From NCBI RefSeq assembly GCF_029626235.1, contig NZ_JARUBO010000005.1, positions 5,862,001-5,926,000 on the forward strand: 64,000 nt of DNA, written 5' to 3'. The notes under the pieces are model-generated. The model was not told where the DNA came from, did not search any database, and saw only the letters and a list, made by a program, of their open reading frames with translations. The translations under genes were made by a program, and so were the position numbers. Positions 58,572-64,000 of this stretch are shown here, one piece after another. Positions within the stretch are counted from its first letter, which is position 1; each line of letters opens with the position of its first letter. The DNA comes from Micromonospora sp. WMMD1120 (GTDB lineage Bacteria > Actinomycetota > Actinomycetes > Mycobacteriales > Micromonosporaceae).

Positions 58572-58617
58572 AGCGGTATACCTCAGAGGCATGTTCATGC
58601 CTCTGAGGTATACCGCT
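58572..58617. repeat. 46-bp perfect palindrome between convergent genes
   Basis: A 22-bp arm, starting AGCGGTATACC and containing CCTCAGAGGCATG, is followed after TT by its exact reverse complement. Each arm itself contains the palindrome GGTATACC. It lies 42 bases after the TylF-like gene and 70 before the end of the LCP gene. It could act as a bidirectional terminator or be a dispersed element. Confidence 0.85.
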
Positions 58618-58687: not shown

Positions 58688-59737
58688 CTAGTTGGCCGGT
58701 GGCGTCTGCGGGTTCGCGGCGAGCCACTGCGCCACGCGGTCCTCGCGCAGCGCGGCGAAGAGCGCCGGGGCCCGCGCCTCGTCCAGTCGCACCGCCGACC
58801 CGGCCGGGGTCTGCAGGTTGGGGTCGCTGAACGGGACGGTGACGAACTGCACCGACTCGGGCTTCACCCGTCGCAGCGCGAGGGCGAGGTCGGTCAGGTT
58901 CAGGTCGCGGTCGACGATCAGCGACTCGGCCGCCGTGGTGAGCACCCGGTCGAGCCGGGTCGGGCTGGTGAGCAGGCTCGTCGCGGTGACCCGCTCGGCG
59001 ATGGCGCGCACCACCAACTGCTGGTCGTGGATCCGCCCGAAGTCACCGCCGGGCACGCCGTGCCGCTGCCGCATCAGGTCGTCGGCCGCCTTGCCGTCCA
59101 GGTTGTGGCATCCGACCGGCCAGGTCACGCCGGTGTCCGAGGACGTGACGGTGTACGGCAGGCAGACGGTGACGCCCTCCACGGCGTCCACGAGCTTGCG
59201 TACGGCGGCGAAGTTCGCCACCAGCACGCCGTCGAGGGGCAGGCCGGTGAGCTTGGCGACCGTCTCGGCGGCCAACGCGGGGCCGCCGAACGCGAACGCC
59301 GCGTTGATCTTGTTCGGTCCGCCGGCCCAGGCCTCCCCCGCCGCCGGCACGTCGACGTAGCTGTCCCGGGGGATGGAGACGACAGTGGCGCCGTCGCGCG
59401 CGGCGTTCACGTGCACCAGCATGATCGTGTCCGACCGTTGCCCCGGGTAGCGGCCCTGGTCCGGCTCGCCGTCGCGGGAGTCCGACCCCAGCAACAGGAG
59501 GTTGAGCGGGCCCGACTCCCACCGCCGCTCGTCGCGCGGGCCGGTGCCCGGTCCGAGGATGTCCTGGCGCTGCACCCGGCTCTCGTACCGGTGCTTGAGG
59601 CCGAAGCCGGCCGCGACCAGGCCCGCGCAGAGCACGGCGAGCAGGACGAGCAGGGCGATGCCCGCCTTCTTCCAGCCCGCCATCGACCGCCACCGGGACG
59701 TCGGCGGGACCACCCGGCTGGGGGTACCGACCACCAT
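58688..59737 (-). CDS. LytR-CpsA-Psr family glycopolymer ligase
   Basis: The 349-residue protein has a cytosolic N-terminus, one membrane span (KKAGIALLVLLAVLCAGLVA) and an extracellular LCP domain: LLLGSDSRDG, RSDTIMLVHVN, VVSIPRDSYV with the catalytic Arg, and DDLMRQRHGVPGGDFGRI. It transfers undecaprenyl-linked glycopolymers to peptidoglycan, so it is the likely attachment enzyme for the cluster's product. GGAGG nine bases upstream fixes ATG 59737. It is divergent from the exosortase operon. Confidence 0.88.
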   Translation of the reverse strand: MVVGTPSRVVPPTSRWRSMAGWKKAGIALLVLLAVLCAGLVAAGFGLKHRYESRVQRQDILGPGTGPRDERRWESGPLNLLLLGSDSRDGEPDQGRYPGQRSDTIMLVHVNAARDGATVVSIPRDSYVDVPAAGEAWAGGPNKINAAFAFGGPALAAETVAKLTGLPLDGVLVANFAAVRKLVDAVEGVTVCLPYTVTSSDTGVTWPVGCHNLDGKAADDLMRQRHGVPGGDFGRIHDQQLVVRAIAERVTATSLLTSPTRLDRVLTTAAESLIVDRDLNLTDLALALRRVKPESVQFVTVPFSDPNLQTPAGSAVRLDEARAPALFAALREDRVAQWLAANPQTPPAN

Positions 59738-59862
59738 CTCGACCACCTCCGCACCACTGTCGGAAACGCCGGAACCTGTTGTGGGGCAAGGGAAACCGCG
59801 CCGGCCTTCCCACCCTCGGGGGCATTTAATCACTCTTTAGGGTCTCTATGCTCTTTTATCCT

Positions 59863-59916: not shown

Positions 59917-60066
59917 ATGTACGGAGTACCTACCAAGGGGCCACACATCGGCGGCGGCCTCGCCGCCACCGGGGTCGCCATCCAGTCCTGGCTGCTGGTC
60001 GGCGTCGGACTGGTCGTGCTGGGCGTGGCGTTGTGGCTCGTCGCCATGCTGGGTCGCGAGCGATGA
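59917..60066 (+). CDS. 49-residue membrane peptide with LAATG-type sorting-like signal
   Basis: This very small gene encodes a hydrophilic 14-residue start (MYGVPTKGPHIGGG), then LAATG at residues 15-19, a single hydrophobic helix (about 20-43) and a positive tail (GRER). That is the order of an LPXTG-type or exosortase-type C-terminal sorting signal, but with hardly any protein in front of it. GAGGGA six bases upstream and the ATGA overlap with the exosortase gene support that it is real and cotranscribed. It may be a processed substrate, an accessory subunit of the exosortase, or a simple membrane peptide. Confidence 0.72.
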   Translation: MYGVPTKGPHIGGGLAATGVAIQSWLLVGVGLVVLGVALWLVAMLGRER

Positions 60067-60605
60067 CCGGATCCCGCCGTGGGTCCTGGCTGCGCGCCTG
60101 CGCGGGCGGCCTGATCGGCGTCGCCGTCGCCGTGGTGACACTGTGGCGCTGGCACGACATCGCCAGCGGCGAGGCGTGGCTGAACGCCCAGCTCGTCAGG
60201 GCCGCCGGCCTGGCGGACACGAAGTCGATCGGCGCCGCCGTCATCTTCCCGCTCGACGAGCGCTGGGTCGGCTTCATGGTCTCCAGCGGCTGCTCGGTCG
60301 CCCTGCTGCTGATCCCGCCGATCGTGCTCGCGTCGACCCTGATCGGGTTCCGGCGCATTTCGATGTCCCGGGGACTGAACGCCCTGGCGCTGGCCGTCGT
60401 GCTGCTGGTCACCGTGAACCAGATCCGCCTCGCGGCGGTGGTGGTGTCGATGCAGACCTGGGGCTTCCAGCTCGGCTACGAACGCAGTCACGTGCTGATC
60501 GGCTCGGTGATCACCACCGCCGGCCTGATCGCCGTGACCATCCTGTTCGTCGTCCTGGTCGGTCGGACCAAGCGGATCCGTGGGGCGGTCGCCGGTGTCC
60601 ACTGA
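60063..60605 (+). CDS. exosortase/archaeosortase family protein
   Basis: The 180-residue membrane protein has five to six hydrophobic spans and the catalytic set of the family: Cys77 (SSGCSV), Arg122 (NQIRLAAVVV) and His143 (RSHVLIGS). It should cleave a C-terminal sorting signal in the membrane and join it to a lipid or glycan. It is preceded by the 49-residue peptide (ATGA overlap) and overlaps the GT2 gene by 11 bases, so all are one operon. Length fits the short actinobacterial members. Confidence 0.8.
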   Translation: MTGSRRGSWLRACAGGLIGVAVAVVTLWRWHDIASGEAWLNAQLVRAAGLADTKSIGAAVIFPLDERWVGFMVSSGCSVALLLIPPIVLASTLIGFRRISMSRGLNALALAVVLLVTVNQIRLAAVVVSMQTWGFQLGYERSHVLIGSVITTAGLIAVTILFVVLVGRTKRIRGAVAGVH

Positions 60606-62181
60606 GACGCAGTCGCTCGCGCTGCTCAACACGGCGGCGTTCCTGCTGTGCGTCAGCTTCTGCGCGTACGTGCTGAGCATCCTGGTGTTCCACCTGAAGA
60701 GCGGGCGTAGTCGGGGTGGCAGCCCGGACGGCTTCGACTGGCACGTCATCGTGCCCTGCCGCAACGAGGCGTCGGTCATCGGCGAGACCGTGCGGCGGCT
60801 GCTCTGCGACTTCCCGCAGGTGACCGTCTGGTGCGTCGACGACGCGTCCGACGACGGCACGCTGGCCGAGCTGGAGGCCTTCGCCGACCAGCCACGGGTG
60901 CACGTGGTCCGGCGTCAACTGCCGGACGCGCGCCAGGGCAAGGGCGCCGCGCTCAACGCCGCCTGGCGGCGTATCGAGCAGTGGCTGCCCGCCGACGCGG
61001 ACCGCACCCGGGTGATCGTCGGCGTGCTGGACGCGGACAGCCGACTCGACCCGCAGGGCCCCGTCGCCCTGGCCGGCCGGCAGTACTTCGGCACTCCGGA
61101 CGTCGGCGCCGTACAGGTCGAGGTGCGGATGCTCCAGTGCGCGCCGCGCCGCTACGCCCAGGCGACAGCCACCAGCCGGTGGGGACGACTGCTGGTCCGG
61201 CTGCAGGACATGGAGTTCCGCGCGCCGATCGCGGCCATGCAGTCGCTGCGCCGGCGTACCGGCAGCGTCGCCATGGGCGGCAACGGGCAGTTCACCAGGC
61301 TGTCGCTGCTCGACGAGATCGCCGAGCAGCACGGCACGCCGTGGCACGGGGCGCTGTTGGAGGATTTCGAGCTGGGACTGCACATCCTGCTGGCCGGCGG
61401 GCGCACCGAGTACTGCGCGGAGAGCTGGGTGGCCCAGGAGGCGCTGACCCGGATCCGCCCGCTGGTCCGCCAGCGCACCCGCTGGGCCCAGGGATCGATG
61501 CAGTGTGGCCGCTACCTCGGCCGGGTGCTGCGCTCCTCGCGCATCCGCAACTCCGCGACGCTGGAGATCGCGCACTTCCTGGCCGCGCCGTGGACCCAAC
61601 TGCTGGGCACGCCTGTCTACCTCGCCTGCCTGGTGGTGTTGACCTACTACATCGACAACACCGCCGGCGGCCTGCGGGGCTGGTGGAACAGTGGCGGCTG
61701 GGGCGTACCCCCGTTGGTGCTCGTCTTCGGCATCGGACCGTTCGCCCTCTGGGGCATCGTCTACCGGGCCCGGTGCGAACCGCAGCTGTCGGTGTCCAAG
61801 GCCCTGCTGCTCGGCATCTGCCACTGGCTCTACAGCTACGCCCAGTCGCTGGCGGTCTGGCTGGCCTTCGCCCGCATGCTGACCGCCCGTACCGACTGGC
61901 AGAAGACAGCGCGTGCCGCCGACCCGCAGCCACCGTCGGCCCCGGTCCGGGCCGTCGGCCGGGCGTCCGTGACCGCGACGCCGGCACCCCGGTCAGCCTC
62001 CGTCGGCACGGCGACCGTGCCGCCCCAGCCGCCCCAGCCGCGCCGGCTGCTCCCGGCGCGGCGGCCCCGCCGAGGCGGCGACGGGCCACGGTCCATCCGG
62101 CCACCCCGGCACCTGAGCCACCTCACCCACCCGACCACCCCCACCACAGACCGCCCCACCATCGCCCACGTCAGAAAGTAG
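60595..62181 (+). CDS. processive GT2 glycosyltransferase (cellulose/hyaluronan synthase-like)
   Basis: The 528-residue enzyme has an N-terminal membrane span, the GT-A catalytic site with VDDASDDGT (about 81-89), DADS (146-149), LLEDFELGL (about 253-261) and QRTRW (about 291-295), and three or four further spans, as in processive synthases. A Pro/Arg-rich tail of about 90 residues follows. It makes a polymer and probably exports it at the same time. GTG 60595 lies 11 bases before the exosortase stop. Confidence 0.87.
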   Translation: MSTETQSLALLNTAAFLLCVSFCAYVLSILVFHLKSGRSRGGSPDGFDWHVIVPCRNEASVIGETVRRLLCDFPQVTVWCVDDASDDGTLAELEAFADQPRVHVVRRQLPDARQGKGAALNAAWRRIEQWLPADADRTRVIVGVLDADSRLDPQGPVALAGRQYFGTPDVGAVQVEVRMLQCAPRRYAQATATSRWGRLLVRLQDMEFRAPIAAMQSLRRRTGSVAMGGNGQFTRLSLLDEIAEQHGTPWHGALLEDFELGLHILLAGGRTEYCAESWVAQEALTRIRPLVRQRTRWAQGSMQCGRYLGRVLRSSRIRNSATLEIAHFLAAPWTQLLGTPVYLACLVVLTYYIDNTAGGLRGWWNSGGWGVPPLVLVFGIGPFALWGIVYRARCEPQLSVSKALLLGICHWLYSYAQSLAVWLAFARMLTARTDWQKTARAADPQPPSAPVRAVGRASVTATPAPRSASVGTATVPPQPPQPRRLLPARRPRRGGDGPRSIRPPRHLSHLTHPTTPTTDRPTIAHVRK

Positions 62182-62187
62182 ACATCT

Positions 62188-63051
62188 ATGCCACGAGTTA
62201 GATCCGGCCTCGCCCGCACCGCGGCGGTGCTGGCCGGCGGCCTCGCCCTGGCCGTCCTGGCGGCCTCCCCGGCCATGGCGGACACGTCCCAGTCCTCGGC
62301 GTCCGCGCTCCAGATCAGCCTGCTCGGTGGTGGTGTCGCCAGCTCCGGCACCGCGTCGGCCAGCAACGACGGCACCACCGAGTCGATCTCCGGCAACCAG
62401 AATCCCCCACTGGCCGTGCTCGGCGGCCAGACCGTCATCACCGCCGGGGTACTGGCCCAGAACGTCCGGGCCTTCAACGACGGCACCTCGGCGGCCTGCG
62501 CCGGCGTGCTCGGCGTGGGCGGCACGGTGACCATCGGCCCTGGCGGATCGTGCCTGGTCACGCCCGGCGCCGCGGTGACCCTCAACCTCGGCACCAACGG
62601 TCTGGCCACCATCGCCCTGGTCGCCGATGCCATCTACTCGTCGTGCACGGCCACCAGCAGCCCATCGGCGACCGGCACGACCTCGCTGGTCAACGCCCGG
62701 ATCACCTCGACCCTGCTGGGCATCGAGACGACGCTGCTGAACCTGCCGGCGAACCCGGCGCCGAACACCGGACTGAGCGTGCCGGGGCTCATCGACCTGA
62801 CGCTCAACGACCAGACCAGCTCGGACGTCGGCCAGCTCACCGTCACCGCGCTGAACCTCACGGCGCTCGGCGGCGCGCTGGCCGGGGTGACCATCGGCAC
62901 GTCGAGCTGCGGCGTCAACGCTGTCGCGCCGCCCATCCCGGTGATCCCGCTCGCCGGGGCGCCGCTCGCGCTCGGCATCGGCGCGCTCGTGGCCGGCACC
63001 ACCGGCGGGTTCTCGCTCTACCGGCGTCGCCGCGCGGCACCCGGGAGCTGA
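62188..63051 (+). CDS. predicted surface-anchored (choice-of-anchor P-like) protein
   Basis: The 287-residue protein has a Sec signal (VLAGGLALAVLAASPAMADT), a Ser/Thr/Gly/Ala-rich beta domain with four Cys, and a C-terminal hydrophobic span followed by Arg cluster (LGIGALVAGTTGGFSLYRRR). It is a candidate substrate for the exosortase upstream, six bases after the GT2 gene. The name of the anchor family is recalled and not confirmed by search. No LPXTG motif is present. Confidence 0.72.
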   Translation: MPRVRSGLARTAAVLAGGLALAVLAASPAMADTSQSSASALQISLLGGGVASSGTASASNDGTTESISGNQNPPLAVLGGQTVITAGVLAQNVRAFNDGTSAACAGVLGVGGTVTIGPGGSCLVTPGAAVTLNLGTNGLATIALVADAIYSSCTATSSPSATGTTSLVNARITSTLLGIETTLLNLPANPAPNTGLSVPGLIDLTLNDQTSSDVGQLTVTALNLTALGGALAGVTIGTSSCGVNAVAPPIPVIPLAGAPLALGIGALVAGTTGGFSLYRRRRAAPGS

Positions 63052-63057
63052 CCCGAC

Positions 63058-64000
63058 ATGTGTGCGAGCAGGTCGACCACGCGAGAGGTCCTGATCCTGG
63101 CCGGCACCAGGCCGGAGGGCGTCAAGACCGCGCCTCTGATCCGCCGTCTCCTCGACGATCCGAGGTTCACGGTACGGGTGGCGGACACCGGCCAACAGCC
63201 GGGACGCGTCGCCGAGGCACTCGACCCGTTCGACCTCCGTCCGGAGGTGAGCCTGCGCCCGCAACGGCGCACCGGCTCGCTCGCCGAGCTGGCGGCGGCC
63301 CTGATCACGGGGATCGACGACCTGCTCACACACCACCGTCCAGCGGCGGTCGTGGTGCAGGGGGACACCACGACCGCCCTGGCCGGCGGGACCGCCGCGT
63401 TCTGGCGGCGCGTACCCATCGTCCACCTGGAGGCCGGCCTGCGGACCAACGACCTGGACCGGCCGTTCCCGGAGGAGGCCAACCGGGCGATGCTCGCCCG
63501 GATCGCGGCGCTGCACCTGGCGCCCACCGAGGCGGCCCGGGTGAACCTCCTCGGCGAGGGCATCCCCGCCTCCGCCATCGCGGTGACCGGCAACACCGTC
63601 GTGGACGCGCTCGCGGACCTCGTCGACAGGGGCGTGGCCCGGCCGCCGGACTGGATCGATCCGGCCCGAAGGCTGGTGGTGGCCACCGCGCACCGGCGGG
63701 AGCACTGGGGGCACGGGGTGGCGGCCACCATCGACGGGCTCCGCCGTCTGGCACGACGGCGCCCCGACCTCCAGATCGTGATGGTCGCGCACCCGAACCC
63801 ACGCCTGAGCGCGGAGGTCACCGCGGGCCTCGCGGGCGTCGCCAACGCCCGCGTCACCCCGCCGCTGGCGTACCCGCAGATGGTCGGGCTGCTCCGGGTG
63901 GCCGACCTGGTCGTCACCGACTCCGGTGGGCTCCAGGAGGAGGCCGCCACCCTGGGGGTTCCGTTGCTGGTCACCAGGGACACCACGGAACGTCCGGAGG
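63058..64000 (+). CDS. wecB: UDP-N-acetylglucosamine 2-epimerase (non-hydrolysing), 3' end cut
   Basis: The partial protein (more than 314 residues) has GTRPEGVKTAPL, QGDTTTAL, HLEAGLRTNDLDRPFPEEAN, GNTVVD, HRREHWG and TDSGGLQEEA, the signatures of WecB-type epimerases. It converts UDP-GlcNAc to UDP-ManNAc, supplying the polysaccharide genes. ATG 63058 follows GGGAG by eleven bases. It runs off the window. Confidence 0.9.
   Translation, partial: MCASRSTTREVLILAGTRPEGVKTAPLIRRLLDDPRFTVRVADTGQQPGRVAEALDPFDLRPEVSLRPQRRTGSLAELAAALITGIDDLLTHHRPAAVVVQGDTTTALAGGTAAFWRRVPIVHLEAGLRTNDLDRPFPEEANRAMLARIAALHLAPTEAARVNLLGEGIPASAIAVTGNTVVDALADLVDRGVARPPDWIDPARRLVVATAHRREHWGHGVAATIDGLRRLARRRPDLQIVMVAHPNPRLSAEVTAGLAGVANARVTPPLAYPQMVGLLRVADLVVTDSGGLQEEAATLGVPLLVTRDTTERPE

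Follow-up and report, generated by a model that had tools for sequence, protein, structure and literature searches.

Exosortases of the EpsH type are described by the motifs CxG, NxxR and HxxxG and by an association with polysaccharide genes (PMC1569441), and a cysteine acyl-enzyme with transfer to a lipid amine was proposed for the archaeosortase ArtA (PMC7157517). Class E sortases recognise the signal LAXTG (PMC5148588), and LPVTG seems to be the signal used by SrtE, the class E enzyme of Actinoplanes missouriensis (PMC13251363). We analysed a 64,000-nucleotide stretch of the genome of Micromonospora sp. WMMD1120 (contig NZ_JARUBO010000005.1, positions 5,862,001 to 5,926,000 of the forward strand), here called the window. 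Its right end holds a tightly packed plus-strand operon encoding a 49-residue peptide with the motif LAATG, an exosortase, a processive glycosyltransferase of family 2 (GT2), a secreted protein and a WecB-like epimerase, followed by an Acyl_transf_3 gene. The peptide was conserved, and it lay beside a QxxRW-type GT2 in every peptide locus examined, both with and without an exosortase. It is thus one of a family of small proteins that accompany GT2s, and many members of this family carry a sortase signal.

The LAATG peptide and its glycosyltransferase neighbour

The peptide gene (59917..60066, plus strand; 49 aa, MYGVPTKGPHIGGGLAATGVAIQSWLLVGVGLVVLGVALWLVAMLGRER) has a GAGGGAG sequence in front of its ATG and a G+C content of 0.84 at third codon positions. 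As first described, it encodes a microprotein with a predicted exported tail, the LAATG motif at residues 15-19 as counted from the reading frame (59959..59973, plus strand; these columns are conserved in the peptide alignment), one helix at residues 26-44 and a basic GRER end. No N-terminal signal peptide was found in it, the sole hydrophobic segment being the one that follows LAATG. Motif, helix and basic end are those of a sortase substrate, and the peptide does resemble a sorting signal without cargo, as originally predicted; the surface protein that usually stands in front of such a signal is missing. The NCBI model LAXTG_small_WW (NF058583) aligned through positions 1-50 of its 54 with a score of 28.6 bits, under the cut-off of 65, and the best score among the peptide relatives scanned was 40.8, so that all were under this cut-off. 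The LPXTG_anchor model (TIGR01167) gave 12.4 bits, below 15.9, for the window peptide and was passed by seven of its relatives.

The database holds five further proteins of the same length, 49 residues, at 76-92% identity to the window peptide, and four of the five are named as Micromonospora. A profile of 14 peptides retrieved 78 small homologues, of which 63 start with MY and 67 have a tyrosine in the first four residues; the last L..TG reads LAxTG or LPxTG in 75 of the 78, the search profiles themselves including the motif columns. In 71 of 77 homologues the basic end carried more positive charge than the tail, and for this reason the tail is placed outside the cell. Tail length ranged from 4 to 33 residues (median 14) and its content varied freely. 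A 112-aa version of the peptide (L046:3051-3389) has a long glycine-rich stretch as its exported tail.

The peptide profiles were searched in 150 genomes of the host's family and 394 of its class. In the class genomes the seven best matches were full length and all lay beside exosortases, and weaker short-frame matches among those listed did not. We picked 26 neighbourhoods among the matches listed, mainly by the presence of a short open frame. Twenty of them, spanning 11 genera, encode such a peptide without an exosortase (L136-L148, L151, L152, L153, L154, L157, L158 and L161); the motif of L143 reads LAMSG. The other six (L149, L150, L155, L156, L159 and L160) were judged to hold longer, truncated or other proteins and were dropped, L156 being arguable, and the detector described below found no GT2 in them. 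G455, at a contig edge, was left out of the counts. The 20 exosortase-free loci rule out that the peptide is specific to exosortases, and the original prediction, which had assigned it to the exosortase, is not supported in that part.

A GT2 with the QxxRW motif was found within about 0.8 kb at all 36 peptide loci, 20 without and 16 with an exosortase, and on the same strand in all except L047. For peptides upstream of the GT2, distance was measured as far as the nucleotide-site motif of the GT2. Applied to 67 control loci of about 3 kb each (208,358 bases), this detector gave no GT2; the controls comprised LPXTG-like hits of the host, sortase loci and weak hits of the peptide and cargo-tail profiles. 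The contrast of 36/36 with 0/67 rules out chance adjacency. In seven of the 20 exosortase-free loci the peptide starts 3-25 nt past the GT2 stop. Ten GT2s were scanned for their best model: two matched the XrtP-associated glycosyltransferase (L152, 306 bits; L045, 285 bits), six PgaC/IcaA (L137, L138, L139, L141, L146 and L148) and two NodC (L145 and L147). The order in L152 is peptide, GT2 and WecB-like epimerase, which is the module of the window without its exosortase.

The GT2 of the window (60595..62181, plus strand) is of the processive type, as first described, with 91.9 bits to PF13641 and QRTRW at residue 293. Its score against the XrtP-associated glycosyltransferase NF053846 was 516.3 bits, just under the cut-off of 520.

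Peptide and exosortase

The exosortase (60063..60605, plus strand; 180 aa) has the predicted Cys77, Arg122 and His143, which stand in the motifs C77, N119-QI-R122 and H143-VLI-G147. Residues C77, N119, R122, G134, H143 and G147 were invariant across 22 aligned exosortases. Of the EpsH-type motifs, NQIR and HVLIG are present, and CSV stands where EpsH has CxG. The protein passed the superfamily model TIGR04178 (exo_archaeo; 24.5 bits, cut-off 23) and was below PF09721 (19.9 bits against 25.7) and below the cut-offs of the specific models XrtR (73.5 of 150), XrtS (63.1 of 145) and XrtP (54.9 of 200). A search of the PDB sequences with an exosortase profile gave nothing better than E 0.55. Only one exosortase was found in the host genome. 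The enzyme is rare and patchy, occurring in 12 of 150 family, 9 of 394 class and 6 of 396 phylum genomes with the host counted each time; among the 16 same-genus genomes listed, the host alone has it.

The peptide stop and the exosortase start overlap by 4 nt (ATGA, 60063-60066), and the GTG start of the GT2 gene overlaps the exosortase stop. The predicted coupled four-gene unit is real, and so is an exosortase-GT2 operon in an actinobacterium.

We collected 26 distinct exosortase loci, including L034 from a named collection, and retained 22 after four weak ones (L011, L012, L094 and L095) had been dropped. The peptide was found at 16 of the 22, so the conservation next to exosortases that had been expected in relatives was borne out. 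The peptides of L021-L026 start with MYG or VYG and carry LAxTG, and that of L030 reads MYGNPFVS-LPVTG; the others are at L045, L046, L047, L048, L049 (fused), L050, L051, L052 and L091. In L047 the peptide lies on the opposite strand between GT2 and epimerase, and in L050 between exosortase and GT2. The peptide scan was negative at L027-L029, L034, L092 and L093. A related upstream gene replaces the peptide at L027-L029 and L034, with a GAF domain in L027, the one scanned; L092 and L093 showed a different arrangement by eye. Profile A2 gave seven full-length matches in the 150 family genomes (53.7-95.3 bits), all seven beside an exosortase, and the next match scored 37 bits.

The 87,414 bases around 19 exosortases contained 14 microproteins of the form MY...L[AP]xTG, with the fused form at one further locus. 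Control DNA away from exosortases (471,047 bases) contained 30 L[AP]xTG-plus-helix tails, two of them in short frames and neither of these starting with MY; the one MY-start tail lay inside a long frame (L077), so that a short frame combined with an MY start did not occur. This comparison rules out a chance reading frame as the source of the peptide.

At L049 the reading frame of MYKPP...LPYTG-helix-RR, the same kind of element, continues into the exosortase without an intervening stop (L049:6614-7315). A protein search with this fusion gave 34 relatives, and the alignment held 34 rows, L049 and 33 relatives, the identical P0008 being left out. The fused front part was present in 29 of the 34 aligned proteins, with L[PA]xTG in 29/29, and five were exosortase alone. 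The 29 fused proteins start with MY (24), VY (3), ML (1) or MS (1). One of the fused exosortases was named 'LPXTG-motif cell wall-anchored protein' by its source. The fusion provides good evidence for a membrane site common to peptide and exosortase in this lineage. An AlphaFold model of the fusion had a mean pLDDT of 78; it gives no location for the motif because residues 1-25, which include LPYTG, were of low confidence. A PDB fold search with the model gave no match at E up to 0.001.

Possible roles of the peptide: wall anchor, synthase subunit or exosortase partner

The host has eight sortases, one of class E and seven best matched to class F, five of these seven over the class F cut-off (domain pieces only). 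Across the peptide set LA and LP alternate in the motif, as they do in sortase signals. Because LAxTG and LPxTG interchange, the motif matches class E and the cargo-tail profile has one strong match in the host, we expect the peptide to be cleaved by a sortase, and the tail of the choice-of-anchor P protein described below by the exosortase. We propose, with a probability of roughly 0.45 and on the basis of sequence comparison, that the peptide is a single-pass partner of the GT2 synthase that carries a sortase signal, and that a sortase cut would tie the synthase product to the wall. Once in the membrane, the peptide would have its short, glycine-rich tail on the outer side and its basic end on the inner side. 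A sortase of the host, of class E judging by the motif, would cleave LAATG after T and link the tail to an amine, either in the wall or in the nascent polymer, and the synthase product would thereby be held on the wall. The exosortase would come on top of this: it would process the choice-of-anchor P protein at that protein's own C-terminal tail and so bring it to the same layer of the cell surface. UDP-ManNAc is probably supplied by the WecB-like epimerase, and the acyltransferase probably O-acylates the polymer. The original prediction had offered a modified lipopeptide, a glycan anchor or an exosortase cofactor for the peptide, and the glycan anchor is the best of these three; we infer, as the preferred reading, that the tail would become the wall tether of the GT2 polymer. 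In its widest form the proposal would make a minimal sortase substrate of about 50 residues (stub, motif and helix) the fastener of synthase-made polysaccharides on the actinobacterial wall, the membrane partner of a synthase having become a covalent glycan anchor, with an exosortase adding a surface protein in some lineages and two unrelated transpeptidases working in one assembly line. We regard this generalisation as possible but less likely than not.

Several observations weigh against the wall anchor, among them those of a reverse search for partners of a PgaC-like GT2. The query was the GT2 of L137, itself a peptide locus; 47 of the 394 genomes matched at E up to 1e-30, and 30 loci were retrieved. 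A motif-bearing peptide was found behind the GT2 at 13 of the 30 (12 L[AP]xTG and one LAMSG; eight of the 13 were already in our set). Five have an MY peptide with a drifted motif, such as LTAPFVG or LTYAG (L169-L171, L177 and L185), and eight have a motif-less one-helix protein of 72-92 aa with a longer cytosolic end, whose start lies between -4 and +3 nt relative to the GT2 stop. No partner was found behind the GT2 at one locus (L181), and L176, L178 and L186 were not counted either way, as the script did not locate the GT2 frame. Since the partners of PgaC-like GT2s often have no motif, the partnership does not need a sortase. Moreover, motif counts among profile matches are inflated because the profiles contain the motif, the tail has no universal residue, and the peptide loci are not independent, with five of the 20 exosortase-free ones from one genus. 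We noticed no sortase gene in the operon. The peptide is missing at four exosortase-GT2 loci, the fusion and the gene overlap of 4 nt between peptide and exosortase favour an exosortase role, and the fusion of the whole lineage indicates that peptide and exosortase work side by side there. The motif-less partners are L174, L179, L180, L182, L187, L188, L190 and L191; several share a RAETRSIHPD-like cytosolic end, which might contact the synthase.

Because the reverse search cuts against a pure anchor function, it is quite possible that the peptide is an accessory GT2 subunit like PgaD/IcaD, with a helix that packs on the synthase and aids synthesis or export, and with LAxTG as a secondary trait used for turnover or regulation or not used. 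Such a subunit would account for the GT2 adjacency at 36/36 loci and for the small one-helix partner behind the GT2 in 26 of 30 loci, 13 of them without a sortase motif. The helix and the proline at its inner end are common to motif-bearing and motif-less partners: when 14 partners chosen from both kinds were aligned, M1, G21, A40 and P46 were invariant, P46 lying at the inner end of the helix. Against this reading, L[AP]xTG is retained in three GT2 groups, at all 36 peptide loci (LAMSG at one of them), and in 29/29 fused proteins, although the 36 loci come from sets found with motif-bearing profiles. A pure GT2 subunit would also not be expected to be fused to the exosortase rather than to the GT2. 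The same fusion in 29 of the 34 aligned proteins, the 4-nt gene overlap and the presence of the peptide at 16 of 22 exosortase loci would fit a cofactor, regulator or substrate that holds or feeds the exosortase, or an amine acceptor for its cargo. We consider this unlikely, as 20 peptide loci have no exosortase, four exosortase-GT2 operons have no peptide, and the motif alternates between two sortase signals and bears no likeness to the cargo tail. It is highly improbable that the peptide, once cut, acts itself as a signal, whether released or bound to the wall, or is a modified lipopeptide. The short exported tail and the tyrosine near the start in 67 of 78 homologues agree with such a product, but the tail varies freely in length (4-33) and content, and the GT2 is the only enzyme constant beside the peptide.

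The remaining operon and described systems

The secreted protein (62188..63051, plus strand) passed the choice-of-anchor P model NF040603 (39.5 bits, cut-off 27) and is the likely exosortase cargo. It has a hydrophobic front end and, as first described, a C-terminal helix with an arginine cluster: the tail PPIPVIPLAGAP-helix-RRRR (62929..63048, plus strand), proposed as the exosortase signal from its sequence and the tail profile. No PEP motif was found in this tail. Across the host genome the tail profile scored 80.8 bits with this protein, and the runner-up scored 22.0 bits (E 0.0013); plus-strand frames at the latter place showed no surface protein, and a second exosortase target there was rejected. 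An ice-binding domain protein with a helix-RRR end (L048:5658-6830; PF11999, 166 bits) adjoins a peptide-exosortase-GT2 locus and is perhaps another exosortase cargo. Two parts of the operon go beyond the original four genes. The WecB-like UDP-GlcNAc 2-epimerase (63058..64000, plus strand) extends beyond the window end and has 386 aa in L021, and the gene of the Acyl_transf_3 protein lies 3' of it, outside the window. The promoter scan found none, and one terminator was found against 0.7 in shuffles.

An LCP gene lies upstream on the minus strand (58688-59833), and glycosylation of a wall-anchored protein by an LCP enzyme was reported (PMC6381275). The gene was left out of the module because it has no relative in 11 other clustered neighbourhoods, two of which surround weak exosortase hits. 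Between the TylF and LCP genes there is an inverted repeat whose 22-nt arms match perfectly across a gap of 2 nt (58572-58617; AGCGGTATACCTCAGAGGCATG), which folds at -44.7 kcal/mol (z -9.4). Its arm occurs at 17 places in the genome at up to two mismatches, five of them facing pairs, and the backward control gave none. The repeat is a member of a dispersed palindromic repeat family.

NCBI models already cover the kinds of parts found here. The novelty claimed for the peptide is reduced because NCBIfam has models for both a 'LAXTG motif-containing small protein' and an 'XrtP-associated glycosyltransferase'. In a search largely outside subscription journals, we recognised, among the papers listed, none on a GT2-linked LAXTG microprotein and did not meet the peptide with three GT2 groups, its exosortase-free occurrence, its fusion to an exosortase or its likeness to motif-less partners. 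A sortase-tagged tiny protein beside three GT2 groups, and fused to an exosortase in one lineage, is a small and directly testable handle on the retention of synthase-made polysaccharides by Gram-positive cells and on the roles of exosortases there. Such genes are easily overlooked as sortase substrates, having about 50 codons and no signal peptide and being often named 'hypothetical protein' where they are named at all.

The peptide resembles LAXTG_small_WW in being small, with LAxTG before one helix and a basic end, but the name and description of that model, on which the comparison is based, mention no link to a GT2 or to an exosortase. Together with its GT2 it is like PgaC/IcaA with PgaD/IcaD, a processive GT2 and a small membrane partner; PgaD and IcaD are not known to have a sortase motif. 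Class E sortase substrates, namely the chaplins of Streptomyces and SspA, CwpA and CwpB of Actinoplanes missouriensis, share LAXTG or LPVTG, the helix and the basic end as described in PMC5148588 and PMC13251363. Unlike CwpA-G, which are given as 219-762 aa (PMC13251363), the window peptide has neither signal peptide nor cargo. The operon is like PEP-CTERM/EpsH systems as described in PMC1569441 in NxxR, HxxxG and the link to polysaccharide genes, and differs in that CxG of EpsH is C-S-V here and the cargo tail does not have the PEP motif. Since the scores of its parts are mostly just under the NCBI cut-offs, the operon is close to the systems named by NCBI: although its exosortase is under all three specific cut-offs, it shares with the XrtP, XrtR and XrtS systems matching kinds of genes side by side and a cargo protein over the cut-off of NF040603.

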